Part shown: one piece after another, positions 38,701 through 56,490 of the stretch
Numbering within the stretch: the stretch's first letter is position 1
Layout: each line of letters begins with the position of its first letter
Assembly (NCBI GenBank): GCA_025617745.1
Contig: CM046873.1
Span: 33,055,101-33,119,100 of the forward strand
DNA length: 64,000 bases
From: Heliocidaris erythrogramma
Lineage: Eukaryota > Echinodermata > Echinoidea > Camarodonta > Echinometridae
Direction of reading: 5' to 3'
Made by a program: the position numbers and the translations under genes
Notes under the pieces: generated by a model
Database searches by the model: none
What the model was told of the DNA's origin: nothing
Seen by the model: only the letters and a program-made list of their open reading frames with translations

Positions 38701-41700
38701 CGACCTTGACTGTGCCACCAAATTTGCAAGCACTATCCCATTGCCTATGGGAACGGGTTCATCCCTATATTAAGGCTAAGGGAATTTGAGAATCCAGTCG
38801 TCAATGGGTTAAACGCCCAAAATATATTGGTACAAATTTTTTTAAACGTGCATGGTTCCTCTGTTGTTTAAGATGAAGAAATACATCCTGCATTGATGCC
38901 CAATTTTGCAATTCATCTGTTTTGAGTTTCAAGAAGAAGAATAAAAAAGACACTTTTCTTAATCCCTCTTAATTAGATACAATTTAAAGTTGGGTGGTCA
39001 AAACCCCATACGGCATTGAAAAATTAAAAATATGTTGCTGCATTAAACATTTCAAATTTCATGAGGATTTTCATTAGATACATGATTGTTACTTCACAAT
39101 AACCTCTATCTAATTCTCCTTGAGAAAAATGCAACAAAGAAAAAAAGAAAAGAAAAACAACGTATTCTCCAGCACCAATTGTTCTGTGGTCAATTCCATA
39201 TACTAACTAAAGTTCAACCCTGTAGCATGTACGAGACCTAACCCCAACCCTAATCGGAAACCTAACCCTAATCGGAAACCTAACCCTAATCGGAAACCTA
39301 ACCTGAAACCCAAATGCAACCCCAACCCCAGACCTATATATATCTGTGATGAAATAAAGCCTGGAGGATATGTCACCAGATCAAATAAAATACAGTGTCA
39401 CTGTAACTACTCAAAGTCATCTCAAATTGAACAGGAATCTATTTGGAAGCAATCTGAATGGAATATCCCAAAGGCAATTAGACCTCTGTAGGGTGGACAG
39501 TCCTGATAATGGTCTGTATAATGCTGTGGAAATGAGAGGGATTGGCATGGGACGACCGAAGGCCGAGCTGTGATTGATGGTGCAATCTGCCTAACTAATC
39601 ACGCTACAATGGCCTGCCGCAGGGCCACAGTGTATCACAAGCGCTCATCTTAATCAGTGCTAATGTAACGGACAATGCCAAGGATCTGCCCAAATTGGCA
39701 ACTAAAATGGCTTCCACCCTGACCTGTATTTATATGCTATTACTCTGTGGTGTAGTGTTATACCCAGCAGTTTTTAGTATAAATATTTGTTGTTAACGAT
39801 GTAAAGACATCGTTTGCCGTGGGATGGGGTAATACCTTAGTCACTTGTGCGCATCATGTTGCTCTGTTATTGGTTATTTCTAGAGAAGGCCATTGTTTGG
39901 ATGTAGCAATAGGCAACAGTAAACAAATTCGTGATTACTTTTTTATTGAATCTAAAATGTAATTACATTTTTATTGAATCTAAAATGTAATTACTTTCTA
40001 CACGTATAATTAAGATATTAGAAATATACACATCTTGAAAAATCCACATTTTGTACGAGGGTACCACAGACTTTACATCTATTTTATGTTCCGTATTTTC
40101 TTTCGTTACTGCTATGAGATGAATGAATGAATAACAAGCTTAACCAAGTGGATTGTGAATGCAACATCTAATGATGCATTTCCTGCCTAAATTAGAATCT
40201 AAACTGCTACATTTGTTTTGTACATGATCACATTTTGTAATAGCATACAAGGTATACAAGAAGCCTCAAGGAAGTGGAAAATATTTTTTGGAGCTTTTCT
40301 TTCTTGAAATATATGCAGCAAATAAAGAGTTAAAGTCCGCATTTCCCTTTAAATTTCTGCATATTTACTGTATCTTATAGACATACATGTACAGTGTAGG
40401 GAGAATTTTATCAGAACTGGAAAACAGCGTTGAAGAAAGACATACTGAAGCTTTTCGGCTTTCACTCATCGGTGTATACCGCAAGCATGAACAGAAAGCC
40501 AAAATCAAACAATATACCGGAAACTAAAGGATCAAAATGTGCGAAATATTAAACAGATTTTGATTGGCTGCCTGAACATAATGGGAAATTAGGCTTATTG
40601 CCAGCCGGTTTTGTAATAACGGGAGCTAAAATAATACAAACGTCCTCACAAACTCTTTCTGTCGGCACAGAACAGGGTCAGTGAGCTGAATGTATGTGGC
40701 TTCGAGCATGCGCCGATCAGAACTTTATCAGAACTCAATTTCACCTTTAATGATCCTGATGATGTTGATTACATCTAAAATATTTTTAGTCCTAGACACT
40801 ATTCTACACAAATAGCATCTATAATTGTGAAAAAATGGAATTTAAAATATTCTTTTCATTCACGATTCGTGTTTCCCTTTAAATGTCTGCATGTTTGCTG
40901 TATCATCATCCATGAGAGGATATAGACAAAGAGAGAATACTTAATCGCCATGCTCTACCATTCCATGTGTTGGCAGAAGCTCTCTCGATAATTAATTGCG
41001 GGAAGGTTTTCAATCAGATGATGTCAGATGCGGATTGACGTCATATCTCGCCAGCAGAGGGATGATGTCATGACAAGCCAAGGATGGTGGAGCATTAATA
41101 GCGTTGCTTGCTGCTATATCATTAACCCTTTAATTGCCCACGGGAACCGGGTGATCCCTGTACTAACTAACCCTATGAGAATGAGATAATTCAGTAGGAA
41201 ATGGGATAAGTATAGTAATGCATTTTTTAGCCATCTTAACCCTTTCAGGACAGGAATTATTTTAGGGCTAAATTGATCACATTTTGTTCTTCAAATTGGC
41301 AACAATAATATTTTTCTTTTAATGCTACATGGTTCTAATAAAATGTAATGCCTTTGAAAACAACATACATGGTTAGGAACTTTGTTGGAAAGTTGAAAAA
41401 AGTTGCCAATTTGGATTTTAAAAAATGAATTTGAACCTCTTGATGTGTTGCCAATTTAAGGATTTTAAAGCTTATTCTGGTTTTCGAAATTCTTTGCATC
41501 AAATGCAATATGGTCATGCAACAAAAATGGACACAGTGTGTGCAGAAATTTTTGCTCTTTCTACTGGTATCTGGTATATTTTTAGTGCTTTGAATCAAAA
41601 GTTATTGAGCTAAACCACAAAATGTGATCAGTTGTCTCGAAAGGGTTAAACATGATGTCATAACAAGCGATAGATGGTGGACCATTAGCGGTGCTTGCTT

Positions 41701-44700
41701 TCTTGCTGCAGCTAAAGATGTTATCACACTGATGCAATAACAACCATCTTAAACATTGCCTGCTGATATTATGAAAAGCATATACTTACGCAAATAAAAC
41801 CGTCTTAAACATTGCCAGATATAACATCATGTCGTGTGTTGAGAACCAAAAAGGCATTAACTCGTGTCCTTTTACGCAGATTTACATGTATAACGCCCTT
41901 CTGGCTCTCACCAGACTACATGATGACATAGCAATGCAAGAATGGGAGGCCATTAACATTAAATGCTTGCTGCTGCTATTATCAGGATAAAGTTTAGTGC
42001 TGATTTCGCAGTTCCATTATGGTAAAATAGTCTTGGTGTTGTTGGAAAAGGTTATTATATAGTATGTACAGGTGTATGAATAATTGCCCATTATTGTACA
42101 CTGTGCATTTTGTAGGTTTGACGATCATCAAAATCAAAAAACAATAACAAATTCCACTTAATCTTGCTGAAAAAAAAATCACATACAGTTTAATACAAGC
42201 AATGCACACAGATATGAATACAAGTATGCCTATGGGACCAAAATCAAAATTTATTCCAAAGATTAAAACTATATTTACACTCACATTTGAAACATAAGAC
42301 CATTACAAAAGCAATGTGACACTGCTACTATGATAGCTTTCAGGATTAAAAATAATGAGAATTAGGCTTACAAATTATTTCACACCCATAGTAGAATGCG
42401 GCCTTCTCTTTAAAGGTGTTATCATACTTATGCAAATATAGTCATTTTAGACATGATGTCATATCTGGCCAAGTTTGGTCAGCCACTAGCATCACTTCCT
42501 TGCTGCTATTATTAAAAGATGTTATCATAGTTATGCAAATATAGTCATTTTAGACATGATGTCATATCTGGCCAAGTTTGGTCAGCCACTAAGCATTGCT
42601 TCCTTGCTGCTATTATGAACCCTTTCGAGACAATTGACCACATTTTGCATGAACAAGAAACTAAGTTGTTTTAATTTAATTGTAAGCTTCACAGAGTAGT
42701 TTGGTAACCATATTTTAAAAAAAAATGTATTTTGCATGATACTACATTATCTAGTTACTTTTCTTCATTTATTCATTGAGAAACATTTAGCTAGTGTATA
42801 TAGCCTCACAAGGAAGAAAGAGATACAGATTTTCAAAAAAGAAAAGGAGGGGGAGGGAGAGAGAGAGACGGGGAGGAGAATGACAGGGAAGAAAGAAACC
42901 AACACAGATACAAGAAGAAAAAGAGGGGAAGGGAGAGAGAGAGAGAAAGATGGAAGAGAATGAGAGGGAAGAAAGAGACCAAGACAGACCAGAAGAGAAA
43001 GGGGGAAGGGGAAGAGATAAGGGGAGGAAGACGGGGAAGAAAGCAAAGAGACCAACACAGATGCAAGAAATGAAAGAGGGGAGTGGAGAGAGAGAGAGAG
43101 GGAGACCAGCACAGATGCAAGAAAGAAAAAAAGGAAGGGAGAGAGAGAGAGAGAGGGAGAGGGGGGGGGGGGGGGGGATGGAGAGACAGACCAGAGAGGC
43201 AGACAGATGGAGAGAGAGTGAGAAGGAGATGCCGAAGAGAGACATACATGTACGAGATGTCACTCAGAGTAAGCTAGTACTGTCTAGCAAATAAGCCTGC
43301 AAGATCAGGAGCTTCTGAAGTAGATTTTCATGTCTGATTGCAAGGCCACCGTATCAAGACATTAACCCATTGACTACTGAGTTCTGTCCTTCCCATTGGC
43401 TTAACCCATTCCCTACCGGTACTGGCTGGCTTCTGTATTAAGCCTAGTATGGAAATGAGAGCATTTAGTAGTCATTGACTTAATCCAAGAACTACTCAGT
43501 TCCTGTTGGCAATGAGTTTGAAAGAAATTTTCTTTCTACCAAGTTAATCACAAAAATTCTCTTCAACTTGTTTGTTTGTTGTTGTTTTTTGCTGATATAG
43601 TCAGAACAACTGCAAAACCAGTAATTGATAGAGAAAACATGAAGCACAAGTAAGATAATTACATCAAGAAGTGACTGTATGATGCAGTTAACTGCTCTTC
43701 TTATTAATGTTTCACAAATTCTTATGTCTATGACAATGTCGAGGGGGGCGGAATCTAATCATCTTCGGTACACTGCTCTTCATATGAAGTTGGGGTTTTC
43801 CCTGAAAAAAAAAGAATATATAATGAATTGACATTTGATAAAAAATACTTGATATTTATTAATGAATTACTCTGTTATTTTGAATGTCTTGCCTCAAGTG
43901 TGTAATTAATTTTGACTGGTTTCTTTCATTTGAGTTCTATTTCTGTAGCAAAGCCAAGTGCATGAGTTTAAAATTATTCAGATGTCAAAAAGTACGAGAT
44001 ATGAATAACTTGAAGGGACTATTTCATATTGCCTGACATTTTATATAGTGCATATGAATTAACGTGAGCTGTTGAATATATATATCGTGTTTGTTTTCAC
44101 GAAGTGACGGTTGAACGTGCAATTAACTATTAAAAGGAAAGTTAGTTTTGAATAAATCGCTTTCAAAGTTTTAAAGCATAATCTCATCCTCTTTAGTGTA
44201 TGAAGGTTGAATAAATTTTATATCATGGGGTAGACCACATTTCAATGTTTAGTTCTATGTTTAATTATTTGCATATTTTTTTATATTTGGGGGGAAAGTG
44301 AGCTGTAAACATAACCGTCATTTCATGAAAACACAATTCAAGGACGCGCTTATGATTTGTTTTCACGAAGCGATGGCTCTCAGACCCTGTTTACAGTGAG
44401 AGTAAGCCCGGGCCGAGGCCGGGCTAAATTTCACTGTAAACGCTCAAAAGGCCAAATGCGGTACCAAAAGCGGCCGCGCATTTGGACCACCTCTGGAGGT
44501 AGTCTCGGCCCGGCCTCGGCCCGGCCTTCTTTCACTGTAAACGCACGCGGGGCCAAATGCGGTACCAAATGCGATCCCGGAAGTGCAGCGATCATGACAT
44601 CATTGGATATGATGTCATGATCCCGCGGTTGCTTTGAGCATTGCATGCATTGTACGGCCTGAGCTGCTTTGTTGTCTTTTCTGCTGAGATTTCCAAAGTT

Positions 44701-47700
44701 TGTCCGTGTAAATAAAAGTCGACATACTAGTGTTTTTAATTCATTTATCATCGTTCATCTCTTGTGCTGTTTCGTTCGAAAGAGCAGGCCATTCCTCCTG
44801 CGACGATTCTCCTCACATTGCTCTCTCCTCATCCTCCTGTCACGATTATACCTTTGAATTCTACGAATACGACCTTCCTCATCCATCCTCTTGTCTTCTC
44901 GATCGTACAAAGATATTAAAATTGCGTAGAGAATATGAAATTATCCGAAGTTAAGCGAGCACCTGTGGTGTTCGATCGTTCGCCGTATGCATGCGAGCTA
45001 AAAAAAATATCGGTACAAATAACCCGCGCCACACACGTTTACCCACCAAACTACCCACCAAAATAAACGTTTGTTTACATTCAGAGCGCCACTACGACAA
45101 AATATTGAAAGGTTATAATTTAGGCCGGCCCGAGGCCCGCACTGTAAACGCACAAAATTGAGGGGCCGAGTACCGCAATTAGGGCCGGGCCGAGGCCGGG
45201 CTCGGCCCGGCCCTGCACTGTAAACGGGGTCTCAGCCACGCATGTGCAAAACATATGGGACTTGATGACCGCGCATTTAAGCGTCATTGCGCGTAAACAA
45301 AAATTCAAATCAACGACGCGCTGTTTTTTTTTTTCACGAAGTGACGGGTCTTAGCTGCGCACGTAAAACAAACGGGATGGCTGTAAGCCGTCACTTCGTG
45401 AAAACAGAAAATCCTTTTACTAGGTATTTTCTTGTTGACGTTATCGCCATAGTTACATAATTAGACATTATTATGATCTGAAACTTTGTGAGGTTCAAGA
45501 TGTTAGCGAATGATGTCCAAAAATGCAAAAAACTCAAATTTGAAAAAAAAAAAATGCGATTATCCTCACTCCCGTCACTTCGTGAAAACAGTAACGATTT
45601 AATGTCAAAATAGTGAATTACTCAGGTTGACATCAAGTTGACATTTTATGACATTGCAAATGTAGGTCAGGCCTAGATATTATGCTGTCCTGGTCAGTTC
45701 TCTCCATAATAAAAGGTACTCTAAAGAAACAATTCTACATCTTTTTATTAAATAGCCACAGAAAGAGGAAACAAAGATGTACACTTCAGTATCATTAATT
45801 TATTCACCATGGATGAAAACCCTGGACTGCCATATTGTTTGGAGTATATTATACATGTACACTGTATGTGTGTATGAGTGTATGAGTGTATGTGTGCCAA
45901 AAGTCATCTGTGGCAGGCCCCTGTTTGTTCCATTGATCAACCAAAGCAAGTAAAGAGTTAAATTGGATACAGAGAAGTAGTCATATACTTATACATGTAT
46001 ATGTAATGATAGAGCAAGAGAGAAAAAAATAAAGAAACATATAAGCTTTAATAAAAGAGTACTCTTTGGAGAAAGAGAGAGTTCAAGGGAAGAATTTTAT
46101 GAGTGATGACAATAAAATACCTGAAGACGCAAGTACAATATGATTTTTTCAAATTGATCTGTTTAATTATGTATTTGTCTCTTTTTTCCATTTTTTCCCC
46201 TTCCTACAGGGTATTCTTGGTTCAGGGTTTGCTTTAAAAGTACAACACAAGCAAAGACAAAAACATTTTAGTCGTCAAATTCCTGCAGCTGCTACCCTTA
46301 TTCAGGTATTTATCGCTCTGGCCCAAATTCATGAACTAGGGCCCTGTTTCATAATACTTGTTATCAATAACAAGTTGCAATAACTAAGCTACTGAAATCC
46401 TTGCATCTAATAGGCTGAGAGCAAATTTGTCATAGATTTGTGGAAGTTGTTATTTATATTAATTTTAATGAAATAGGGCCCAGGTTTGAATCGAAAACAT
46501 GGTTTTAATAATACCCTGCCCGAAATAAAATAGCCTAAAAATATGGGGAAAATAGTGGAAATATATTTTTTGACTATTTTTTCAATGGAAAAATAGTTTG
46601 TAAAATAGTGTGAAAATGTGGAAAAATAGTTTTAAAATATATTTTTTTCATATATTATTAAAAAAATTTAAAAGTTCTACTGAAAAAATTAAAAAAAAAT
46701 ATATATAGCATCCCATTTCTACTGAAAAAATAGAAAAAAATATATAGCATAAAATACCCCCCTCAAATGGGTAGAAAATATATTTTTGAACTATCTTTGA
46801 ACTATTTTTTCTTTCTATCAAAAAGAAAAGAAAATAATATAAACATAGCATGAAAATAGGTAAGTAATTTGCAGTCTAAAAAGTATTGGAAGTACAAAAA
46901 ATAGCTTAAAAATAGTACTGTAATTTGCAATATTAGAAGTACAAAAAATAGCATGAAAATAGTTAAGTAATTTGCAGTCTAAAAATCTATAGTAGACAAT
47001 GTTTTAAAAATAGTTTTAAAATAGCCTATCATGTGTGCAGAAGAAAAAAATTAGGTTAAAAATAGTTAAAAGTTGTCGAAGGTTAAAAAATAGTCCCCCA
47101 AAATAGCTTTTAAATAGTTATTAATCAGAAGCTGGCCGGGAAATAGTGAAAAAATAGTCTATTTATTTTCTAGTTTTCAAAAAATAGTATGGACATAGAC
47201 TATTTTTTTTCTATTTTTCAGCGAAAATATGAAAAAAATAGAGCTATTTTTTTTTAAATAGGAGAAAAATAGGGGAAAAGTAAGGAAAAATAGGGACAAA
47301 ATATATTTCTGTTAGCCGGAAAACGGGCAGGGTAATGATACTACTAATACTGTAGTTAGCATTTATAAAGCGCTGGATTACGTATAGCTTCTTTACAAAA
47401 CATGGAATGAATAACACTTTGCTTAATTTAAAAAGTAACTTAAACAATAACTTAAACGATAAAATGATAATGAAAAATACATTGAATAACTTAAAACTGC
47501 AAAGAATTATGAATTTTGAATTATGAATGAATTACAAGCTGATTAGTGCAATATGTTATGAATTTGTTATGAGAATGTAGGATTACTTTGTGTTAAAAAG
47601 GTAGGTCTTTAGTCTGCGTTTAAAGGTATCAACAGTTAGGGATTCACAGACAGAGTTTAGCAGTGCATACAAAAAAATATGACCTATGTTTGGTCAAAAA

Positions 47701-50700
47701 GGCTAAAAGAGAAAGACTTTGATTCTGGAAAATAATTCTTGAATGAAAATGTCTCCATTTAGTCAAATTACAAACTTGATTTTGAACATTTTCTTTCTTT
47801 GTCATTTGAACACCAGTGACTTGAACTGAATTGGCATTTTCAGACTTTTGATATTTTGAACGAAAATGGCAGTGTTTGGACCCATAATAGTAAAATACAT
47901 ATTTTGGGGGCAAATCATTGTTGATTATGTATTGCCTTTTTCATATGTCTGCTTCTACACTGAAGTGAAACGTTAACCAAATCTGGTTAAGGATAAAAGG
48001 AGATTTTTAGATTTAGTCTAAGAGTCTAAAAGTATGTGGAAATTTGTGATTAATGAAATGTTTAGATATTAAAAGATTAGATATAAATTTGCCCCTCCTG
48101 TCTCATTTTATTTAAAGGTATTTTTCTGCTTTTACATGTAACATCATTTTGATGAATGGTTTAGAATGAAATTTTTCAGTCTTGCTCTATGGTGTGGGCA
48201 TGTTTCTTTCTAGCATTGAAAATTTGAAATTATGAAGATGCATTTCGTCGATGTCTTTATTTGTCTTGAATATAGTGTGCCTGGAGATTATATGCCTCAA
48301 ATCAGGAGGGTTTCAAATCTGAAGCAACCTGGAAAATCCACTTAGCGCCCCCTACTCCGAACTTGCAACAATCCGTGCCTAACCAAATATCAGGGGTCGT
48401 GAACTCTGTCAAGCCTCACCTAGCGTTGAAGCGACGGAAAAGCTCCAAACTGAGTCTCAAGGAGGCGCTCTTGCCAACAACACTTCTGGAGCTGTGCGAG
48501 CAACCATCGGCCAATCAGAATGCAAATTCAAATACCTCACCGGGGGCTGGGGAGAAAATATCCCCCCTGATAGCGGGCGGGGTGGCCTGTAATTTAGCTG
48601 GATCTGTAGCAGTGGCTGCGGCTGGAGCCGGAGGTGATATGGTGTGTTACATGGAGGAACCCACCGCAGGTATTCAAACTGAAATTTATAGGACAATGAA
48701 GCACTTATATTTACATTTTAAAATCATTCCATTTCAGCCTCACTTCAATGACTTTATTGAAGTTTGCTTCAATAAAAGCGATGTTTTTAATTAGCTTGAA
48801 CCTACAACCGTCGTATCCACACCCAAATATGCATTCCCCCAAAACCTCTAAAAGTTTATCAGTATCCTGACAGTTTCGAGAACTGCCTCTGCCTAGTCTA
48901 TATGTGTGCCAATGGAAATATGGTGAGGATGTGTCCCTAGGGGATGGATCATGTGAGGACTTCTGCTTTAGAAAATGCATGTGCCTAATACAATTCAATT
49001 CATGGCCCCTACATTTTCCCTCTTATTCAGGGGACTTGATTTAGGCGCCTTACGAAAAGTTTTTACAGCGGCGGGCCCTCGGCGGCGCCGAATCATTCGG
49101 CGCCGCCGAGGGCCCGCCGCTGTAAAAACTTTTCGTAAGGCGCCTTATTCTCACTCATTCTGGATCTTATTGCTTCGAAAAACCAAAACTTAGATTCTGG
49201 TAGTGGAACTCTATTTTGAGAAAAATAGGTTTGAAATGACCCTGCATTGTTTATCTTGCTGTAGTTTGGACTAACAAAATGAAAAACAAACTCTTAAAAC
49301 TTGATGGACATCTCATGCAATGCACTAAAAGCACCTGGTTTAGTCCTTAACCCCTTCCTTGCCGTGGGCGGCAAATCATGCCTAAGAATACGAGTGTTTA
49401 AACAATGTTTTTTGGACTAAGAAAGGCCATGTTTTCTCTTCCTGAAACAGAAACAAATATGATCATACTGAAGTTTATTCCCATGGAGGATATTTTATAC
49501 CCAGTTCAACAATGAACCAAAATACTGAAGTCAAAATTTGACTCTTGATTTATAATCTATGATGAATGTTCAAGACTTTGGTGGCATGGAAGGGGTTAAC
49601 CTATGGTCGAAGCAACTGCATGTCCTGGTAGCCCTTTTTTTGTTGTTGCTAATTAGTCAACTATCATACAATTTCTATCAAATCATTTTTGCTGATTTCA
49701 TGTACATGTATTTGTACTCTTGAATACTCACTCATTGTAAGTTTGGTCTGAATGGGCTTGTTACGTTTACACACGTCACGTTCACGTCACCTTTTGAGCA
49801 GTTTCGTAGAAATACCTGATCTGATCTACGAATTGTAAGGTCTGCGGTTTCGTTGATTAGACCCTGGCTAATCTCCGAATACTCACGTTTTCACGTCGGG
49901 TTACGTGAGTGTTTTAAGGAACCTGCAACGGCTGATATTGAGGGTTAGGGTTAGGGTACCCTAACCCTAACCCTAACGTGACTAATCGAGGTTTACTGAT
50001 AGTATTTCTACGAATTGTTGCGTTTATGTAACCAAACACTTCATAGATTAGATGCCCCTTTTCTACAAAATAGCATGTTACGTGATTACATGACGTGAAC
50101 GTGACGCGAACGTGACGTGTGTAAACGTAACAAGCCGTCTGAATGTATGAAAGTTTATTTTCTGTTTTTACCAGGATTCCAGATTAACTTTAACATTTGT
50201 TGATTCTCCATAGGAAACCCAAACAGGAAGAGAGCAGTGGAGTTGTCGGTATCTGACAGCTCTCAAAGAACGATGAGGATGGGAGATATTATTTGCCTTG
50301 ATCCCCATGATGAGAGTGATAATTATAGCCTTCCCTATGTGCCTGAAACAATAACCACGTAAGTAATCTACATAAGCTTTAAAATCCTTAAATTGGCAAC
50401 AAATTGAGAGGTTCAAAATCATGTTTTTCATCAAAATTGGCAATTTTTTTCAACTAATCGACAAAATATCTAACCATGTATATTGTTCTCAAAGACATTA
50501 CACCTTATTAAAACCATGTAGCACTAAAAGAAAAAAATATTGTTGCCAATTTCAAGAACAAAATGTGATCAATTTAGCCCTTAAATAATTCCTGTCCTAA
50601 AAGGGTTAAAGGTGCTTCATCCTTTTTGCAGACCTACACAAAATTCGACCAAACTTTGCACAGGGTTAGTAGACATCCCGTGGATACTACCTATGAAATT

Positions 50701-53525
50701 TCAAGGTCACAAGTTCTATAACCCCTTTGTAAGAAATGAAAATCTTGCTTTTGTCACAGAGGGAGCTATTTAGAAATCAGTGCAAGTACAGCTAGTAAAG
50801 GTTATAAACTACGCGAAAAAATAATGTGTTTTACCAAATTGTTGTAACAGTTATAACTTTTGTAATCGATCGCATACTCACACAAATTTAAAATTTAGGG
50901 CTGCAAATAGATGAAGTACCTGTAAAACTCGACATTTTTTAACACCATGTACAAGTAAAAGAATCAGATTTATAACTGACTAAGTCAAGTTCACATCGAG
51001 TTGAGTAAATTGAGCCGTCTGGAGCGTAGAGTTGAGTCAGTAGAACAAGCTCGCTGGTGTCAAACTCTAGCTGGCTTCTTTATTACAAAACTGCTTTATT
51101 GTTATCAAGTCCTGAAACACTGATTGCATTGTACATGTAGATCCCAAATATTACCCAAGTATTATTTAACTGCTTTCTTCTTTTACAAGTTCTACGTCGA
51201 TATCTACAATATACAGTTTATTATTAAGTACAAGCTTGAATAAACAAAATACCTTGGAAGGCACTTCATGTGGGGACGTCAAGGAATATAACATCCATTC
51301 CTTTAGCAAGTCCGTCATGAACAGTGTACAACCATTATTTAATCCAAAGTTTGTCCTGAAACATAATTGTTTTCTTCCACTTTCTTTCGCTTCTTTTCCA
51401 GACTCACAGATGCCCATAAAAATGCAATTCGTGCAATAAGAAAAATTAGGTATTATGTTGCAAGGAGAAAATTCCAGGTGAGTCACACTTCTTAATAGCT
51501 CTTTTTTTTTCTGTTCAGTCTTATTTCATTCACCTGCATGTAATCAAATATGCATATAAAATAAAATTTTGTGTAATTCGTAATCTAATGTAACTGCTCC
51601 ATTAAAACAAATGACATGGCTGTAGTTGTTTTTCATAACTGCTGTTTGTGTGGTAATGTTTATGGCACATGTAGTTGACAGTCATCATAAAAAAATATCC
51701 TACATTTTAAAAAATAGATTGATACAGTATACTTAAAACAAACAGAAGGAGGCAGTAAGAAAAGAATGAGGATTGAAAATGCTTAATTTTCTTCACTTAA
51801 TAGATAAGATACATTGTAAGATCTGAATTGTAGAGCTCATTGTTAATGATAAACACTCTTTGTAATGTATAAAAAAAATGATGTCCTGAAAGGGTTAATA
51901 GATATTAAAGATAAATTGTAAGATCTGAATTGTAGAGTTCATTGTTAATGATAAACAATCTTTGTAATGTATCTACATGGGTCTCTGTTACAGGTAGAAA
52001 AAAAAGATCTATTTTTAGTCCAAACATAGAAAATTTATATTCTTGGGAGCGATTCTGTGCCCCGGGGCTCAGAAAAGTATACACAGCAGAAAATGCAATG
52101 GCCATCCTATCATTTCCATTTCATTTTAATAGAAGCTTTTTGTTTTGCTATTGACAGCAAGCAAGGAAACCATACGATGTCCGAGACGTCATTGAACAGT
52201 ACTCACAGGGCCATTTGAACATGATGGTTCGTATTAAAGAGCTTCAAAGAAGAATCGATACTACTTTAGGAAAACCAGGATCTATGCATTTAGGTAAGAA
52301 AATTTGCATTTAATTACAATTTTTCTACCATTGTGTCTAATTTTTTTTCTTTAGATGCTTGCCTTGAATATCCATTTGCTTTTACAGGCTTAGAATAAAA
52401 GTTCAATAGTCATTAAATTTTCATGTTGCTTTCATCTTTTTGCCATGTCTTTTCTCATTTTCTTTGTAATTTTCTGATACATAAAAATTAGGTGATTGAT
52501 ACAATATCTCCAAAACATGAGGTTAAATATGTCACAATTTCATTCTTTATATAATGCAAATGCGTCTGTGATAGACTGAATCAGGGAAAGAATTTTAGCA
52601 TTGTGTGGAGAACAAACAGATTGAAAAAAAAAGTGGTGTTTGAGGTTGTTCACAATTCCTTCACCAAACTAACTACAAACATCACTCTACTTAATACTAA
52701 GATTGGAAATCATTTGCTAGTCCAATTTTCTTTGATTGTGTTATTCAGGAGACAGGAAGAGGCAAACAGTTGTTGCAAGAGTTGCAGTTGTGGAACAAAA
52801 TGTGAGTTTTCACTTTGTACTTTTCTATCTTTCCAGAAATATTCTCATTTCTATTTTCATACCATTTTAATCTCTAACCTATTCTGAATGAGAGGGTGCC
52901 AGACTAACTTTGCCATGATTCTTTTGAAAACAGTCAAGGAGACAGGCTCCTCCAGTTAAATCAGTCGACATGGGGAAGTTATGAGGCATATTAAATGTTC
53001 TAGACTCCAAAGTCTAGCTTATGACTTTGGAATCGCTAATTCATAGAGGTTATAATGATCTATTGTTTGTATTGTTACACTAATTTTTTGTTTTCCCATG
53101 TGCCTGGGAGGGGAAAAAACAAACTTAATTGCTATAGCCCTCAGGCCTCTCCTCCCAATATATCTGATTGGGATAGGCAGGTGAACCACTGCACCATGGT
53201 TTCCCCCTACAATTTGCACTGATAGTGTGGTGAGCTCTTAAAGCACATTGATGTCCTACAAACAGGGTCTCCGGTCCAGTTAACATCCTGTCTGTGGCAC
53301 TAGCTTCTTTGACCCTCTCTCTTATTTGTTTTCCAGATGCAAATGATGGATCGTAAGCTTGACAAGTGCATGCAACTTCTTAACATTCTAGTGGACCGAA
53401 CCACACCCCAACCAATCAGGAGACCAATGCCATCAAGCAAACCCTCATCCTCATCTTCTTCATCTTCTGATGAAGAAGACGAAGAAAGTTCTAAACTGGG
53501 TGCCAGTGGAAGCACCGATACGTAA
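5034..53525 (+). CDS. KCNQ1: KCNQ1-type (Kv7.1) voltage-gated K+ channel, spliced, 5' partial
   Basis: Spliced coding region of twelve exons (each listed separately), 1644 coding bases including the stop, with every phase agreeing across GT-AG introns. The product is a plasma-membrane delayed-rectifier potassium channel subunit. In order it holds the end of S2 and S2-S3 linker, S3, S4 with arginines, S5, pore with selectivity filter TIGYGD, S6 with the PAG bend, helix A with IQxxW, a long linker, helix B, helix C, a coiled-coil helix D and an acidic tail. Segments such as [15 protein letters not shown] and [15 protein letters not shown] fit KCNQ1, whereas KCNQ2-5 have YAHSKELVTAWY-type sequence here. 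Known for the family: tetrameric assembly through helix D, calmodulin on helices A/B, PIP2 dependence. N-terminus, S1 and most of S2 are not visible in the window and are probably upstream. Confidence 0.96.
5211..5281. repeat. ~70-bp foldback repeat (AGCCAGAAGGGCGTTAAC family)
   Basis: Near-palindrome: GGAGCCAGAAGGGCGTTAAC, short loop, then a diverged complement ending CTGGCTCTCAA. Further copies at 9157-9222, 20547-20622, 21413-21484, 26812-26884, 32107-32178 and 41838-41913. Confidence 0.8.
5514..5756. mobile_element. TTAA-flanked MITE, family 2
   Basis: TTAA at 5510-5513 and 5757-5760; ends CCCCTACCATGCC and GGTAGCATGGAAGGGG are inverted copies. Full copy reversed at 29034-29274, diverged copy 49351-49595, truncated copies from 13810 and 12367. 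Confidence 0.75.
5837..6109. mobile_element. two head-to-tail copies of a GGGCCC-GTTTCAT MITE with a CCAAT box
   Basis: Copy one 5837-5981 runs from GGGCCCCGTTTCATAAAACT to AGTTTCATGAAACAGGGCCC; a second copy follows at 5982-6109. Each has TTTGCTCTCAGCCAATCAGA inside. Other copies: 9365-9502 (reverse), 27247-27302 (partial), 33760-33858, 46339-46481 (reverse), 57794-57922, 62285-62420. Confidence 0.8.
6837..7130. repeat. GAATTATGAACC internal-repeat family
   Basis: Irregular runs of a 20-30-bp unit built on TTCAGAATTATGAACC and CATTTTCG. Relatives at 25046-25345 (a foldback of two opposed blocks) and 60708-60950. No ends with target duplication recognised. Confidence 0.75.
7131..9150. other. 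intron DNA, only simple repeats seen
   Basis: Contains a GA run at 7500-7540, a CA run near 8000 and an AAAAC/AACA-rich stretch at 8720-8850. No exon-like segment or recognised element. Confidence 0.5.
9157..9222. repeat. ~70-bp foldback repeat copy
   Basis: TTGAGAGCTATAAGGACATT ... ACCCTTCTTGCTCTCAAC; a diverged member of the AGCCAGAAGGGCGTTAAC family. Confidence 0.6.
9365..9502. mobile_element. GTTTCAT/CCAAT-box MITE, reverse copy
   Basis: TTTCATCAAGCGTTTTGTC at one end and its inverse AAACGCTTGATGAAA at the other, around TCTGATTGGCTGAGAGCAAA. Confidence 0.75.
9503..11010. other. intron DNA, nothing recognised
   Basis: AT-rich unique-looking sequence on both strands; no splice-bounded KCNQ segment, no repeat recognised from elsewhere in the window. 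Confidence 0.4.
11850..12185. repeat. GA-rich low-complexity tract
   Basis: More than 300 bp of purine-only or nearly purine sequence with a G run near 12020. The long open frames here (Arg/Glu/Gly one way, Ser/Leu/Pro the other) are artefacts. Confidence 0.95.
12450..12625. mobile_element. CAGT-ended TA-flanked MITE (pogo/Tigger-like)
   Basis: Starts CAGTTAACTCTGCATGA and ends ATGCAAAATTAACTG, flanked by TA on both sides; inside has the AAGTCGAACTTTCC kind of text common in Tigger-type ends. Superfamily inferred. Confidence 0.6.
13806..13980. mobile_element. TTAA family 2 MITE, truncated
   Basis: TTAACCCCTACCATGCCGTG onward matches 5510-5680; the right end is lost near 13980. Confidence 0.7.
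14387..15095. mobile_element. TTAA MITE family 4, copy with a nested insertion
   Basis: TTAACTCTTTCAGTGCCGAT at the left and GGCACAGTAAGAGTTAA at the right. Homologous to 15829-16294 along its length except for the extra 14448-14674 element. Confidence 0.75.
14448..14674. mobile_element. 227-bp TIR element nested in family 4
   Basis: CAATAGACCGCTTCTGTAAT at the left and its inverse ATTACCGAAGCGGCCTATTG at the right, TIRs continuing to about 34 bp with few mismatches. The sister copy lacks it: at 15890 CACC runs into TTGCTCGACC. Confidence 0.75.
15518..15541. repeat. (GA)n microsatellite
   Basis: About 11 GA units. Confidence 0.95.
15829..16294. mobile_element. TTAA MITE family 4, copy without the nested insertion
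   Basis: TTAACTCTTCCAGTGCCGAT ... CCCCTTGGCAAAGTAAGAGTTAA-type ends; aligns with 14387-15095. Confidence 0.75.
16579..16994 (+). pseudogene. Crypton-like / DUF3504 tyrosine-recombinase remnant
   Basis: The open frame 16579-16920 begins [20 protein letters not shown] and includes [18 protein letters not shown], followed by [20 protein letters not shown] and YVTQTIDEI. This order (an N-terminal NT-R/K-T...F helix and a later GRRGREN motif) is what I associate with the Crypton-derived DUF3504 domain of ZMYM/KIAA1958-type proteins. It breaks near 16915: the similarity resumes in another frame (about 16920-16994, [17 protein letters not shown]) and then hits a stop. The middle of the domain appears deleted and the catalytic C-terminal part is missing. 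No host gene structure is evident; it is probably a dead transposon copy within the KCNQ1 intron. Family assignment is from memory of motifs. Confidence 0.55.
17031..17110. mobile_element. 80-bp TTAA MITE, family 1
   Basis: TTAACCCATTGCCTACGGGA at one end and ATTCAGTAGTCAACGGGTTAA-type inverse at the other; imperfect 16-bp TIRs. Other copies: 21933-22012, 29289-29368 (reverse), 31350-31429, 38730-38812, 41122-41210, 43362-43518 (nested), split copy 55119-55590; related piece 23337-23430. Confidence 0.8.
17107..17182. repeat. palindrome with ATATTGACTGGCC arms
   Basis: GCAATATTGACTGGCCTCAG and the inverse CTGAAGCCAGTCAATATTGC about 20 bp apart. The same TATTGACTGGC text bounds 17589-17712 and starts the repeat at 29519. 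Confidence 0.7.
17183..17395. repeat. dispersed repeat; inverted copy split at 29519-30655
   Basis: Includes ACAGGGCAATTAAAATTCAT, CGGGTTTCACCATTCACTTT and TTGTCAGTGCGCTTTTATTA. The reverse complement occurs at 30459-30655 and continues at 29519-29551, interrupted there by a 903-bp insert. Confidence 0.8.
18818..18992. mobile_element. CAGTGGAA-ended MITE (pogo/Tigger-like)
   Basis: CAGTGGAAACGC at the left, AATATTCCACTG at the right; inside repeated TGATATAACAAG/GGTATAACAAGG text. Superfamily inferred from CAGT ends. Confidence 0.5.
18993..19900. other. intron DNA with an 18-bp tandem duplication
   Basis: CCACATGGTTTTGAGTGC occurs twice in tandem at about 19541-19577. Nothing else recognised. 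Confidence 0.4.
20100..20625. repeat. cluster of half and full foldback-repeat units
   Basis: At roughly 90-120-bp intervals the text GACATATC(AG/GA)-CTG-GAGCCAGAA-GGGCGTTAAC recurs (about 20160, 20260, 20350, 20460, 20545), ending with a complete hairpin copy at 20547-20622. Intervening parts share CACTCAAT-TGCCAC-AAAGACA-AGGACAAC, so this is a degenerate tandem array. Confidence 0.65.
21413..21484. repeat. foldback repeat copy, near-perfect arms
   Basis: GGAGGCAGAAGGGCATTAAC and GTTAACGCCC-like complement ATTAACGCCCTTCTGGCTCTC with a short AT loop. Confidence 0.8.
21885..22290. repeat. dispersed repeat (1.4-kb family), interrupted by a TTAA MITE
   Basis: Parallel to 1391-1776; interrupted by the family 1 MITE at 21933-22012. 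Confidence 0.75.
21933..22012. mobile_element. TTAA family 1 MITE, filled site
   Basis: TTAA at 21933-21936 and 22009-22012 flank a 72-bp core. The related locus near 1435 has one TTAA and no insert. Confidence 0.85.
22350..22923. mobile_element. TTAA MITE family 5
   Basis: TTAAAGGGCAATCCAACC at the left, GGTTGGATTGCCTTTTAAA at the right, and long subterminal inverted blocks (CAGAGAAGCAGATTG / CCGTTTCTCTTATTTTTCTG). A second copy, with a decayed left TTAA, is 59706-60124. Confidence 0.75.
23976..24009. repeat. perfect compact hairpin, 15-bp arms, 4-nt loop
   Basis: AGGGAAGTGTAACTA, loop AGAT, exact complement TAGTTACACTTCCCT. Confidence 0.85.
24207..24290. repeat. CT-rich microsatellite
   Basis: Interrupted (CT)n; gives a spurious Ser/Leu-rich open frame. 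Confidence 0.9.
25046..25345. repeat. GAATTATGAACC family, foldback copy
   Basis: Left half reads GGTTCATAATTCC repeatedly, right half the complement GGAATTATGAACC, with a junction near 25205. Confidence 0.75.
25546..25705. mobile_element. short foldback MITE
   Basis: ATTAAAGGCACACC at 25593-25606 and its inverse GGTGTGCCTTTAATTG at 25655 onward, with outer blocks TTATCCGATAA / TTATCGGACAAATGAGG also opposed. Ends not exact. Confidence 0.55.
25982..26249. mobile_element. 268-bp TIR element
   Basis: ATAGCAAAACGCAATGGGGC ... GACGCAGGAAAGACGCAT at the left, inverse ATGCGTCCTTCCCGCG ... GTTTTGCTAT at the right; about 45-bp imperfect TIRs. Confidence 0.65.
26812..26884. repeat. foldback repeat copy
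   Basis: TTTGGAGCCAGAAGGGCGTA ... TTAGCGCCCTTCTAGCTCCAA; both arms end in GTTTGGAGC. Confidence 0.8.
27013..27091 (+). CDS. KCNQ1: KCNQ1 exon: S3 and start of S4
   Basis: 79 bp after TTGTAG, donor GTAGGT at 27092. With the carried-over base it reads [18 protein letters not shown] then QVFAASAI and the first two bases of an Arg codon. This is S3 plus the extracellular S3-S4 loop and the first S4 arginine. The 79-bp length equals the corresponding human KCNQ1 exon as I recall it; in KCNQ2-5 this and the next exon are fused as 176 bp. Confidence 0.95.
27247..27302. mobile_element. CCAAT-box MITE fragment
   Basis: CAAATTTGCTCTCAGCCAAT and TTTCAGTAGCTTATAACTG only; both ends missing. Confidence 0.65.
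28090..28600. repeat. degenerate pyrimidine minisatellite
   Basis: About 500 bp of TTCTACTATTTCTACTTC-like text. The 175-residue Leu/Phe/Ser-rich frame here is low-complexity, not a gene. Confidence 0.9.
29030..29278. mobile_element. TTAA family 2 MITE, reverse copy
   Basis: TTAACCCCTGCCATGCC ... CGGCATGGTAGGGGTTAA, complete, inverted relative to 5510-5760. Confidence 0.75.
29289..29368. mobile_element. TTAA family 1 MITE, reverse copy
   Basis: TTAACCCATTGACTACTGAC ... CAGTAGGCAATTGGTTAA, 11 bp from the family 2 copy. Confidence 0.75.
29552..30454. mobile_element. 903-bp TTAA element (piggyBac/Kolobok-like), non-coding
   Basis: TTAA at 29548-29551 and 30455-30458. Ends AGGGAATTAACCCC and GAGGTTAATTCTCCT are inverted; internally GGGGGCTGCCATTTTC and its inverse near 30265-30285. 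Interrupts the repeat seen intact at 17183-17395. No open frame of transposase size, so non-autonomous. Confidence 0.75.
31350..31429. mobile_element. TTAA family 1 MITE
   Basis: TTAACCCATCGCCTACCGGA ... TTCAGCAGGTTAA. Confidence 0.75.
31557..31785. mobile_element. CACTGTAAAAAATT foldback MITE, TA-flanked
   Basis: TACACTGTAAAAAATTGCTG at 31557 and the inverse CAGTAATTTTTTACAGTGTA ending 31785. The interior is multiple ACAGTAAATTACTG units in both directions, so almost the whole element can fold back. Confidence 0.8.
32107..32178. repeat. foldback repeat copy
   Basis: CTGTTTAGAGCCAGAAGGAT ... GCCCCTCTGACACTCAACAG; diverged arms. Confidence 0.65.
32728..32822. repeat. (TAC)n microsatellite
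   Basis: About 95 bp of TAC/ACT triplets, interrupted at 32790. Confidence 0.95.
33020..33116 (+). CDS. KCNQ1: KCNQ1 exon: S4 voltage sensor and S4-S5 linker
   Basis: 97 bp, acceptor TTGTAG ending 33019, donor GTAAGG at 33117. It finishes the Arg codon and then encodes 32 residues: [27 protein letters not shown] and FIHRQ. The S4 arginines, the Gln and the His-Ile/Val-Asp-Arg-Gln end follow the KCNQ1 pattern; KCNQ2-5 have RMIRMDRRGGTWKLL instead. The S4-S5 linker contacts the S6 gate and PIP2 in characterised channels. Confidence 0.96.
33584..33724 (+). CDS. KCNQ1: KCNQ1 exon: S5, turret and pore-helix start
   Basis: 141 bp (47 codons, phase 0 both ends), acceptor CAG at 33581-33583 behind a strong T tract, donor GTAAGA at 33725. 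Encodes [26 protein letters not shown], a turret [12 protein letters not shown] and YADALWWGV. The turret is of KCNQ1 length and carries a cysteine; KCNQ2-type turrets are shorter. The only intron separating it from the S4 exon is 467 bp. Confidence 0.96.
33760..33858. mobile_element. CCAAT-box MITE, left-truncated, just after an exon
   Basis: CAAATTTGCTCTCAGCCAAT begins about 36 bp downstream of the S5-exon donor; ends ACGCTTGATGAAAAGCTCCC. Confidence 0.7.
34330..34645. repeat. CT-rich tandem duplication
   Basis: TCTCTTGCTATTTCACTCTG with AGATCTTCTTC occurs at about 34347 and 34500, each followed by (CT)n; about 155 bp apart. Confidence 0.75.
35532..35642 (+). CDS. KCNQ1: KCNQ1 exon: selectivity filter and S6 start
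   Basis: 111 bp (37 codons), acceptor ACAG ending 35531, donor GTAAGT at 35643. Encodes [19 protein letters not shown] then [18 protein letters not shown]. The signature TIGYGD marks a K+-selective pore. The residue after GDK is Val, as in KCNQ1, where KCNQ2 has Tyr (a determinant of external TEA block in characterised channels). The donor is followed closely by a C15-A18-like homopolymer block at about 35670-35710. Confidence 0.97.
36058..36510. repeat. 83-bp minisatellite, about 5 units
   Basis: GACGGTGAGAAAGAG starts at 36124, 36207, 36290, 36373 and 36456: an exact 83-bp period. Units are nearly identical and purine-rich; the first is slightly diverged. Confidence 0.95.
36769..36958. mobile_element. 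CAGT-ended MITE (copy of 3534-3723)
   Basis: CAGTCAAACCTGCTTTAG ... ACAGGTTTCACTG with AAGACCACCTG repeats. Confidence 0.7.
37696..37786. mobile_element. short relative of the CAGT-ended MITE
   Basis: GTAAAACCTGCCTAAAAAGG ... GACAGGTTACAC; internal deletion relative to the longer copies. Confidence 0.5.
37787..38490. other. intron DNA, nothing recognised
   Basis: No exon-like stretch and no repeat matched elsewhere in the window. Confidence 0.4.
38730..38812. mobile_element. TTAA family 1 MITE, decayed left end; fragment also at 38493-38550
   Basis: CCCATTGCCTATGGGAACGG ... CAGTCGTCAATGGGTTAA. The left TTAA is lost. A half copy TTAACCAGTTGACTACTGAA lies about 240 bp upstream. Confidence 0.65.
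39234..39320. repeat. 18-bp tandem repeat with telomere-like core
   Basis: AAACCTAACCCTAATCGG repeated about three times with diverged edges; CCTAACCCTAA resembles the animal telomere repeat. Confidence 0.8.
39331..41000. other. intron DNA with a small tandem duplication
   Basis: TTTTTATTGAATCTAAAATG followed by TAATTAC is duplicated at about 39940-39994. Otherwise nothing recognised. Confidence 0.4.
41122..41210. mobile_element. TTAA family 1 MITE
   Basis: TTAACCCTTTAATTGCCCAC ... CAGTAGGAAATGGGATAA; the right TTAA is decayed. Confidence 0.65.
41238..41648. mobile_element. TTAA MITE family 3
   Basis: TTAACCCTTTCAGGACAGG at the left, GTCTCGAAAGGGTTAA at the right; internal AATATTGTTGCCAATT and GCTTTAAAATCC blocks. 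Other copies: 50390-50608 (left end lost), 55158-55553, 58475-58817; fragments near 42614 and 51880. Confidence 0.75.
41838..41913. repeat. foldback repeat copy
   Basis: TTGAGAACCAAAAAGGCATT ... ATAACGCCCTTCTGGCTCTCA. Confidence 0.7.
42833..43235. repeat. GA-rich minisatellite with a 17-G run
   Basis: GAAAGAGACCAACACAGATG-CAAGAAA recurs about every 65-80 bp; G17 at 43161-43177. Five or more overlapping open frames here are artefacts. Confidence 0.9.
43362..43518. mobile_element. TTAA family 1 MITE inserted into another family 1 copy
   Basis: Outer copy starts TTAACCCATTGACTACTGAG; at its internal TTAA (43401-43404) a second complete copy (43405-43479) begins CCCATTCCCTACCGG and ends at TTAA 43480-43483, after which the outer copy resumes (CCAAGAACTACTCAGTTCCT...GGCAATGAG). 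Confidence 0.8.
44092..45590. mobile_element. composite with five TTTTCACGAAGTGACGG boxes
   Basis: TGTTTTCACGAAGTGACGG at 44092-44110, variants at 44359-44377 and about 45331, and inverse copies at 45388-45407 and 45572-45590. The outermost pair would make a 1.5-kb inverted-repeat element, but nesting makes its true limits uncertain. The interior is GC-rich relative to surroundings. Confidence 0.55.
44382..45232. mobile_element. 851-bp GC-rich TIR element, possible 5-bp flanking repeat
   Basis: AGACCCTGTTTACAGTG at 44382 and the inverse CACTGTAAACGGGGTCT ending 45232. Subterminal GGGCCGAGGCCGGGC blocks occur in both orientations, and CACTGTAAACG occurs four times (about 44428, 44530, 45139, 45216). 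CTCAG appears at both borders. Confidence 0.65.
46210..46305 (+). CDS. KCNQ1: KCNQ1 exon: S6 end and helix A (calmodulin site)
   Basis: 96 bp (32 codons), acceptor TACAG ending 46209, donor GTATTT at 46306. Encodes [20 protein letters not shown], then [12 protein letters not shown]. The Gly completes the PAG bend of S6; the basic S6-proximal stretch is the KCNQ PIP2-interacting region; AAATLIQ begins helix A and its IQ-like calmodulin site. Confidence 0.96.
46339..46481. mobile_element. GGGCCC/CCAAT-box MITE, reverse copy
   Basis: GGGCCCTGTTTCATAATACT ... AATGAAATAGGGCCC, 33 bp after an exon donor. Confidence 0.8.
46512..47334. mobile_element. AAAATAG-rich TIR element
   Basis: TACCCTGCCCG at 46512-46522 and inverse CGGGCAGGGTA at 47324-47334. 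The 800-bp interior is almost wholly AAAATAGT/TATTTTT variants, so it is both an element and a low-complexity repeat. Confidence 0.65.
47345..47660. repeat. possible retrotransposon 3'-tail fragment
   Basis: Contains AGCATTTATAAAGCGCTG and AAAAAGGTAGGTCTTTAGTC, phrases reminiscent of LINE/SINE tails in animals. Weak: no coding part or poly(A) seen. Confidence 0.3.
48276..48669 (+). CDS. KCNQ1: KCNQ1 exon: helix A end and variable A-B linker
   Basis: 394 bp, acceptor ATATAG ending 48275, donor GTATTC at 48670, exits in phase 1. Begins CAWRLYAS and ATWKIHL, which complete helix A and match CAWRCYA...STWKIYI of relatives. The rest is not conserved: Gln/Asn/Ser-rich, a basic patch ([16 protein letters not shown]), then a Gly/Ala-rich run ([20 protein letters not shown]). 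This is much longer than the roughly 123-bp human exon. An in-frame ATG is absent at the start, so open-frame finders begin too late (48363) and run past the donor. Confidence 0.9.
49044..49144. mobile_element. perfect 101-bp palindromic MITE, TTA-flanked (PIF/Harbinger-like)
   Basis: 50-bp arms are exact complements around one C at 49094. Starts GGCGCCTTACG, ends CGTAAGGCGCC, with TTA at 49041-49043 and 49145-49147. A 3-bp TTA/TAA duplication is the PIF/Harbinger habit. GC-rich in an AT-rich intron. Confidence 0.8.
49347..49599. mobile_element. TTAA family 2 MITE, diverged
   Basis: TTAACCCCTTCCTTGCCGTG ... GGTGGCATGGAAGGGGTTAA. Confidence 0.75.
49755..50136. mobile_element. 382-bp MITE with exact 9-bp target duplication
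   Basis: Starts GGCTTGTTACGTTTACACAC; the right end is the inverse, with a 36-bp TIR and one mismatch. GTCTGAATG lies on both sides (49746-49754, 50137-50145). 9-bp duplications occur with Mutator-like and sometimes Merlin-like elements. The centre holds a perfect telomere-like palindrome (49941-49974). Confidence 0.85.
50214..50358 (+). CDS. KCNQ1: KCNQ1 exon: distal A-B linker
   Basis: 145 bp, acceptor CATAG ending 50213, donor GTAAGT at 50359. Completes a Gly codon, then reads [38 protein letters not shown] and LPYVPETIT. No strong family motif of its own; supported by open frame, good borders and phases that fit both neighbours. Ser-rich and acidic, as expected of a cytoplasmic linker. 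Confidence 0.85.
50612..50830. repeat. dispersed repeat (copy of 2488-2700)
   Basis: GACATCCCGTGGATACTACC, TTTCAAGGTCACAAGTTCTA and GTCACAGAGGGAGC blocks in the same order. Confidence 0.7.
51402..51477 (+). CDS. KCNQ1: KCNQ1 exon: helix B
   Basis: 76 bp, acceptor TTCCAG ending 51401, donor GTGAGT at 51478. Encodes [20 protein letters not shown] then RRKFQ, equivalent to the family's [24 protein letters not shown]. This is the second calmodulin-binding helix. 76 bp is also the length I recall for the human KCNQ1 exon here. Confidence 0.94.
52158..52293 (+). CDS. KCNQ1: KCNQ1 exon: helix C
   Basis: 136 bp, acceptor GACAG ending 52157, donor GTAAGA at 52294. Encodes [45 protein letters not shown] and one base of a Gly codon. 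The stretch through KELQRR is nearly invariant across KCNQ1 proteins and forms part of the assembly region. Confidence 0.96.
52749..52801 (+). CDS. KCNQ1: KCNQ1 exon: start of coiled-coil helix D
   Basis: 53 bp, acceptor TTCAG ending 52748, donor GTGAGT at 52802. Completes Gly and encodes [17 protein letters not shown]. Together with the next exon this makes a heptad-like helix that aligns with the family's ARLNRVEDKVTQLDQRL tetramerisation helix. Short, but phases and splice sites are exact. Confidence 0.88.
53099..53220 (-). repeat. possible tRNA-derived SINE, reverse
   Basis: On the minus strand GGGGAAACCATGGTGCAGTG resembles a pol III A-box region (TGGTGCAGTGGTT). No clear B box, so this is tentative. 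It lies in the last intron. Confidence 0.35.
53337..53525 (+). CDS. KCNQ1: KCNQ1 last exon: helix D end, acidic tail, stop
   Basis: Coding part of the last exon: acceptor TTCCAG ending 53336, phase 0, 62 codons then TAA at 53523-53525. [19 protein letters not shown] finishes the coiled coil. It is followed by a Pro-rich spacer, a run of eight serines, an acidic DEEDEE patch (good casein-kinase-2-like context, inferred) and the end GASGSTDT. There is no hydrophobic C-terminal PDZ ligand. Exon presumably continues into the 3' UTR. Confidence 0.92.
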   Translation: MQMMDRKLDKCMQLLNILVDRTTPQPIRRPMPSSKPSSSSSSSSDEEDEESSKLGASGSTDT

Positions 53526-54797: not shown

Positions 54798-55110
54798 GGC
54801 CCGTATTCTGAACTCCGGTTTAACTTAAACCATGGTCTAAATGTGTGGTTTAATTATGGGCAGCCAAATGTGACACAAATCTCTAACAGTGGATATTCAA
54901 TTTATCAGCATATTTGGTACTCAAAATGTTAAAAACTGTCTGGGAATGATAAGTACAATAGTTTTCTTGACCATTAAAGCATGAGAACCAGAATCCAGTA
55001 AACATAAGGAACATACAGTGTTAACAAAGTTTTGACATTTTTGGCTACCCATAATTAAACCACAGATTTAAACTATGGTTTAAGTTAAACCGGAGTTCAG
55101 AATATGGGCC
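54798..55110. mobile_element. 313-bp TIR element, ATT-flanked
   Basis: GGCCCGTATTCTGAACTCCG ... with about 70-bp inverted arms ending CGGAGTTCAGAATATGGGCC; ATT on both sides. GGCC ends and a 3-bp repeat suggest a PIF/Harbinger relative (inference). Confidence 0.75.
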
Positions 55111-55590: not shown

Positions 55591-55671
55591 ACTTTGATCC
55601 AGAGGCCTTTATAAGAAGAAAATCAAATCAAATTCTAGAACCCCTTTGCTACTGTTGGTCGTGTTACCATA

Positions 55672-56320
55672 TGTGACCCTCCACCACAAAACGACCAATA
55701 AGTCGGAAATTTGGGTTTTTAAAATTTCAACACAGTTTGAAAGCTTAGATTCTAAGCTTTAAAATGATATATAACTTGTCTTGTATGGACTAAGCAAACG
55801 AGAATGTCAACGTGTCAGACAGGCTAATGACCAAAACAATAGAGAAAACGGGCTCTAAAGAAGAGTGACCATTTAAGAGCGCCTAATCTGTGTCCTATTG
55901 TTTGTCGCACAAAAGGTTGGGTCAAAACTCCCTAGCTTAAGCTGTGAAGTACTAATTGGATTGGGTTGAAACTTTCCATGCCTTCAGAATAGATATATTT
56001 CTATGTTTCTTTAGATTTTGAATATCAAACAGTGCATAGTTTTTAAGCTATACCAGAAAAGCGATGTGAAGTACAATCCCAGCAAGTTGACATACAGAGT
56101 TTGAATGTCCAGGAAAATATGGTTATTTTGAATGAGTGTAAAAACTTATTTCTACAAGGTATTATAACCTGAAATTTTGTCAGATGGTAGATTAATAAAT
56201 GAACTTTCAGAAAATACAAAAGAATTGAAATAAAAATTTCCACCCCAAACCACCTTTTTCAGCTGTTTACTCTAAAACTCCCATTGCGACTTATTGGTCG
56301 TTTTGTGGTGGAGGGTCACA
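55672..56320. mobile_element. 649-bp TIR element, TA-flanked (Tc1/mariner-like)
   Basis: TGTGACCCTCCACCACAAAA ... inverse TTTTGTGGTGGAGGGTCACA, about 34-bp TIRs including CGACCAATAAGTCG; TA on both sides. No transposase frame. Confidence 0.75.
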
Positions 56321-56490
56321 TACATGTATGTAGTTTGATTTATGGAAAACACAATAAAATCCTTAAAATGTCAATATATTGCAAGGTTCATAGTCCCTTT
56401 CCTTCTGCACAAGTTGGAATGTAAAAGTTCACTTGTGAGTAATGAAATGTATTTGATTTGTATTGAGCAGTAGGACAGTTGTGGACATAT

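Follow-up and report, generated by a model that had tools for sequence, protein, structure and literature searches.

Telomeric repeats at internal-deletion junctions in a MITE family of the sea urchin Heliocidaris erythrogramma

Merlin (IS1016-like) transposons have GG...CC ends, 8–9 bp target-site duplications and an IS1016-type transposase, hAT elements make a uniform 8-bp duplication, and TTAGGG is the common animal telomere hexamer. Both the origin of miniature inverted-repeat transposable elements (MITEs) from full-length transposons and the scattering of short telomeric repeats inside chromosomes are debated. The accessible part of one review lists transposition by mobile elements among the possible sources of interstitial telomeric blocks (PMC6410037), and head-to-head telomeric stretches have been described at break sites, a second telomerase being proposed to act on the other side (PMC8537989, excerpted text). 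Among transposons, Mutator-like elements (MULEs) have duplications of 8–11 bp and terminal inverted repeats (TIRs) of 14–500 bp according to excerpts of PMC6446971, and Tm1 of Meloidogyne and Tetris of Drosophila virilis have duplications of 8–10 bp (excerpts of PMC3169594 and PMC4079207). The element described here, with duplications of 8 or 9 bp and TIRs of 36–39 bp, fits the MULE ranges, which are not specific, and it resembles all three in having ends that are built of or hold tandem repeats and in the existence of non-coding, MITE-like members (same excerpts: PMC3169594, PMC4079207, PMC6446971).

The window, that is, the whole stretch of H. erythrogramma DNA that was analysed, is 64,000 nucleotides long. 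At 49755–50136 it holds a 382-bp element which a preliminary description had called a MITE flanked by an exact 9-bp duplication. Extent and flanks are both borne out, GTCTGAATG standing letter for letter to the left (49746–49754) and to the right (50137–50145). The TIRs (left, 49755–49790, + strand; right, 50101–50136, − strand) have the 36-bp length ascribed to them, with an identity of 35/36, or 95% over 39 bp. Between a left module (49755–49940, + strand) and a right module (49977–50136, + strand), which are common to short and long copies of the family and about 96% identical on average among 16 head-to-head copies, lies the telomeric core AGGGTTAGGGTTAGGGT|ACCCTAACCCTAACCCTAA (49941–49976), a head-to-head array at an internal-deletion junction. 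Its 17-bp arms are 100% complementary with zero spacer, as had been claimed, and it folds as a strong hairpin. The head-to-head junction at GGTACC is likewise real, although it does not mark the centre of the element, being at position 203 of 382, 12 bp from the midpoint at 191. Shuffling the window 100 times with dinucleotides preserved gave 0 comparable arm pairs and 0 telomeric 12-mers, and with 0/100 a chance origin of core and arms is rejected. The subterminal repeats had been taken for palindromes, wrongly: ACGTGACG is not palindromic, and the two ends are instead inverted copies of each other. By eye, the right end is made of 11-base direct repeats (TGACGTGAACG, TGACGCGAACG and TGACGTG; 50091–50119, + strand), one more than are present at the left end; compared with itself, it matches at 19 of 32 positions at a shift of 11 and at 20 of 38 at a shift of 5. 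The CpG observed/expected ratio of the element is 1.44 versus 0.52 for the window, and 7 of 1273 sliding windows are as high; this would fit a recent insertion, but the ends of the family are themselves CpG-rich. The single open frame of at least 75 aa overlapping the element had no Pfam match, and positions 48000–51000 of the window had no match in Rfam.

On the + strand, the open frames at 33476–33745 (best E 2.7e-21) and 46144–46380 (best E 8.8e-14) match KCNQ1-type potassium channels, a frame at 35454 matches the ion-channel family, and exons of a KCNQ1-type channel are spread over 33476–50358 on that strand. A probable host exon was recognized by eye at 50214–50358 (+ strand; AG before, GTAAGT after, open frame); its frame had no Pfam match. 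The element would accordingly be intronic, about 70 bp upstream of this exon. Inverted repeats are common in the window, which contains five other pairs, but the one at 49755–50136 alone has an exact 9-bp duplication at its outer edge. The pairs at 9374–9495, 27750–27937, 54804–55104 and 55670–56322, in which 32–36 of 36 end bases match, are likely to be other MITEs. Some 600 bp from the element lies a very GC-rich, near-perfect hairpin of 113 bp (49038–49150; 56-nt arms 96% complementary, 1-nt loop), and a degenerate telomere-like tandem array with the unit AACCCTAATCGGAAACCT occupies 39232–39322.

The genome searched comprised 1,064,227,859 bases in 26 contigs, and the best 40 of 111 candidates (30 loci and 10 stretches) were scored; copy counts are lower bounds, and the best 40 of 111 lean towards window-like, thus array-bearing, copies. 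With 40 scored places, many of them carrying arrays, the reading of the window copy as a one-off freak was rejected. Both ends were placed in 34 of the 40, while L041, L050, L051, L055, L057 and L061 have no usable second end in the stretch read; two-ended copies with arrays measure 370–502 bp. Six pairs of copies represent the same insertion (L024/25, L028/29, L030/31, L037/40, L052/53 and L058/59). Their aligned flanks are 95–100% identical (with an alignment of only 111 bases for the left flank of L030/31 and one in two parts for the right flank of L058/59), and the two members of each pair share a contig, separated by about 8 to 360 kb, as would be expected of segmental (local) duplicates or unmerged haplotypes. 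When these pairs are merged there are 28 two-ended insertion sites, and 24 of them, of all kinds, carry a duplication of 8 or 9 bp that is exact or has a single mismatch. Seventeen sites fit 8 bp (13 exactly, 4 with one mismatch), seven fit 9 bp (5 exactly, including the window copy, and 2 with one mismatch), and four (L038, L046, L056 and L060) fit neither. The family therefore makes mostly 8-bp duplications and sometimes 9-bp ones, the window copy being of the minority kind, and a strict 9-bp family is rejected; the 9-bp duplications that the preliminary description looked for in other copies are largely lacking, yet they do occur at the seven sites. Short, with TIRs and a target-site duplication, present at 40 places and with no Pfam match in the overlapping frame, the element is, as first proposed, a MITE: a multi-copy, non-autonomous derivative of a DNA transposon.

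As to its superfamily, the mixture of 8- and 9-bp duplications fits both Mutator and Merlin. The likeness to Merlin lies in duplication size and in the ends, and we know of no Merlin element with a telomeric core; hAT was rejected on the sites that fit 9 bp (7/28, 5 exactly, the window copy among them). Five open frames were searched against Pfam, two from 1.9-kb copies and three from the stretch L063, and the sole match was a THAP domain (E 4.7e-09) in an L063 frame about 5.7 kb inward of the left module; no transposase was found in the copies read. The right module was not found in the 10-kb L063 stretch holding this frame, which is possibly a P-type transposase, and so a lead towards the P superfamily, or possibly a host gene. 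In the copy at L064:1079-9954 the left and right modules are separated by 8.9 kb, and the long open frames in this interval resemble, by eye, a LINE-type retrotransposon.

The preliminary description had allowed that the core might be unique to the window copy. For telomeric repeats this is false: 31 of the 40 copies pass a strict test, an internal run of at least two exact hexamers, and outside elements the same test picked out two places in 247,041 unique bases (elements and window included), one beside L049 and one in L050/L065. A separate telomere-like array of three close blocks adjoins L049 (G000:C6:50998004-50998059). Five copies (L054, L056, L058, L059 and L060) are 513–1932 bp long and have no telomeric array, and L055, L057 and L061 also run on into non-telomeric sequence. 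The interior common to the long copies continues across the breakpoints of the short ones; in the array-free long copies this ancestral interior reads GAGGCTAGTATGACGTCATTATCGTTTATCG on the left and ...CATTGAAGTGAG...ATTACTTAGTCTC...CCTAGAGTAATTTTCTTAATGAAACGTGAC on the right. Because these longer copies (0.5–1.9 kb) show the ancestral interior without an array, the arrays can be placed at internal-deletion junctions: the short copies derive from longer relatives by internal deletion and have telomeric hexamers at the junction.

Five junction structures (E1 to E5), differing in breakpoints and orientation, were found in 32 of the 40 copies. Seventeen copies are head-to-head (E1: L022–L036, L043 and L051). 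Eight (E2: L037–L040, L045–L047 and L050) have a one-way TTAGGG array after TCA(A/T)TA and rejoin at (T)AGAGTAATTTTC, and four (E3: L041, L042, L044 and L049) a one-way CCCTAA array after ATCGTT, rejoining at AATTTTC. One-way CCCTAA arrays after GGCTA characterize E4 (L048) and E5 (L052 and L053, one site), which have a common left point and different right points, that of E5 being located within the interior of L056. The other eight copies have no array; with pairs merged, the 34 sites divide into 14 of E1, 7 of E2, 4 of E3, 1 each of E4 and E5, and 7 without an array. The shortest array is little more than one unit (L041) and the longest has ten; arrays share 0–3 bases with the flanks at their junctions. 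The E2 array begins GGGTTA directly after TA (TTA in L046), and the arrays of E3, E4 and E5 begin, on the other strand, with GGG after ATT, TAA and ATA respectively.

In each of the 17 head-to-head cores the polarity is TTAGGG->|<-CCCTAA, and no tail-to-tail core was found among the 40 copies. At their deletion junctions these 17 of 40 thus show the head-to-head TTAGGG|CCCTAA arrangement that marks interstitial telomeric repeats of telomere fusions or break sites. The centre of the core is GGGCTAACCC in 9 of the 17, with variants in L034 and L043; its inverse, GGGTTAGCCC, in two (L028 and L051), with a variant in L035; and GGGTTAACCC in two (L027 and L029). The centre GGGTACCC belongs to the window copy alone, which is the one copy in 17 with an exact GGTACC, so that for this palindrome uniqueness does hold. 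L028 and L029 share the same GGTACTACA site and flanks 95–98% identical, and have arrays of 44 versus 56 nt with the centres GGGTTAGCCC versus GGGTTAACCC; in L024 versus L025 both arm lengths differ. The arrays of L030/L031 and of L052/L053 are identical, and those of L037/L040 are one letter apart. Since two of the six same-insertion pairs differ beyond a single letter, the arrays change in place, and the exact GGTACC palindrome was most likely acquired late, in this copy only, by a core that is prone to change.

Our working hypothesis, which we hold to have about an even chance of being correct, is that telomeric repeats, probably added by telomerase, mended broken copies, which were then amplified as MITEs. 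A break inside an element, or the gap left by excision, would be repaired incompletely and so become an internal deletion. TTAGGG repeats would be added to the broken 3' ends, telomerase being the simplest agent, and the ends would then be joined, extension on one side giving a one-way array and extension on both sides a head-to-head array. Both element ends would be kept in the products, which the transposase could then spread as MITEs, and array length and central junction would change in place later, the GGTACC of the window copy representing one such late state. Under telomerase patching the polarity of the head-to-head cores is the expected one, because both 3' ends are extended; it counts for little as evidence, because it was probably one event, inherited by 17 copies. 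A one-way array alone fits either orientation and so does not discriminate. The broader proposal, that telomerase repeatedly caps broken transposon ends and thereby keeps generating both MITEs and dispersed interstitial telomeric repeats, is offered more tentatively, as somewhat doubtful.

Repetition is what a history with a single capture would dispense with: one element would have gained a short array once, and deletions, inversions and slippage in the array, together with copying between elements, would have made the other structures. We judge this a serious possibility that falls short of even. The modules differ very little (pairwise identity averages 0.963 for 16 E1 rows and 0.961 for 4 E3 rows), and the core classes are mixed on the module tree. 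The alignment behind these values covers 35 of the 40 copies (L051, L055, L057, L060 and L061 left out), and the tree 28 rows, from which L050, whose right side was wrong because its right end is lost, and one member per same-insertion pair had been removed. The core classes require 15 changes against a shuffle mean of 14.0, with 2000 of 2000 shuffles as low or lower, and E1 versus the rest requires 7 against 9.5 (135 of 2000 as low). The tree is star-like, too much so for independent events to be counted on it, and this mixed, star-like form may reflect copying between elements. In-place change in L024/L025 and L028/L029 speaks the same way, as do the two inverse centres GGGCTAACCC (9/17) and GGGTTAGCCC (2/17), which look as if cores invert; E4 and E5 start GAGGCTAACCC, and E1 can be written as GAGGCTAACCC with a TTAGGG block inserted. 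There is a precedent in MITEs with hitchhiking microsatellites, cited in the accessible text of PMC6947457. A single gain would, however, need several separate flank deletions, each ending at the edge of the array, on both sides and with 0–3 shared bases, and among the 40 copies none combined an array with both long interiors.

The shortness of the arrays (about 1 to 10 units) and their position between non-homologous breakpoints would also suit ready-made telomeric fragments captured as end-joining filler, with no telomerase at the break, but such capture does not account for the telomeric nature of the inserts, arrays occurring at only 2 outside places in 247 kb, and we think it improbable. 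Selection on the core, for instance because it recruits telomere-binding proteins or stabilizes the hairpin, could be read from the majority of array-bearing copies (31/40) and from the strong fold of the window core. That proportion is biased by the query, however, array length (little more than one unit to ten) and orientation are variable, and the array-free L054 and L058/L059 have also transposed, with exact 9-bp duplications; we regard selection as very improbable. Patching by telomerase would mean that the telomere machinery helps to mend broken transposons, as the junctions hint, and the occurrence in one genome of long and short copies, telomeric deletion points and same-insertion duplicates makes the origin of MITEs and the scattering of telomeric repeats testable together.

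Outside this genome, viral contigs held 0 matches to the 18-base TIR, 0 to the telomeric core and 0 to the subterminal repeat. A looser TIR pattern (16 fixed bases) occurred at 21 places in them, near the estimated chance expectation, and BLAST (E up to 1) gave rows for 16 of the 21, each matching 16–20 bases only. Prokaryote contigs gave 0 matches and phage records none. No MITE with a telomeric core was described in the titles and abstract starts of the open-licence literature among the matches listed, and a text search for end and junction strings returned unrelated matches only, from one string. Nor was such an element found in the accessible parts of a paper on coral MITEs (PMC2872659), of two telomere reviews (PMC6410037 and PMC9498494) or of PMC4522978 and PMC12628747.

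The closest described systems each share one side of this family. Break-site interstitial telomeric sequences, including TERC-ITSs, likewise consist of telomeric units where a break was repaired, in some cases head-to-head, but in the excerpted text they are single loci with no sign of transposon spread (PMC8537989), whereas here the repeats lie inside a mobile element and have multiplied with it. The microsatellite-bearing MITEs cited in the excerpt of PMC6947457 likewise hold a simple repeat; in this family it is the common animal telomere hexamer that is carried, at several different deletion breakpoints and in either orientation. Penelope-like elements are also mobile elements with TTAGGG hexamers, but those treated in the accessible part of PMC4522978 are retroelements near telomeres with hexamers at one end, while this is a DNA transposon with hexamers in mid-element. 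From the Mutator and foldback elements the family differs in the predominance of 8-bp duplications and in its telomeric arrays, which do not figure in the excerpts of their descriptions (PMC3169594, PMC4079207, PMC6446971). As a MITE the element is ordinary; it is the telomeric junctions that set this family apart from those we met in the literature.
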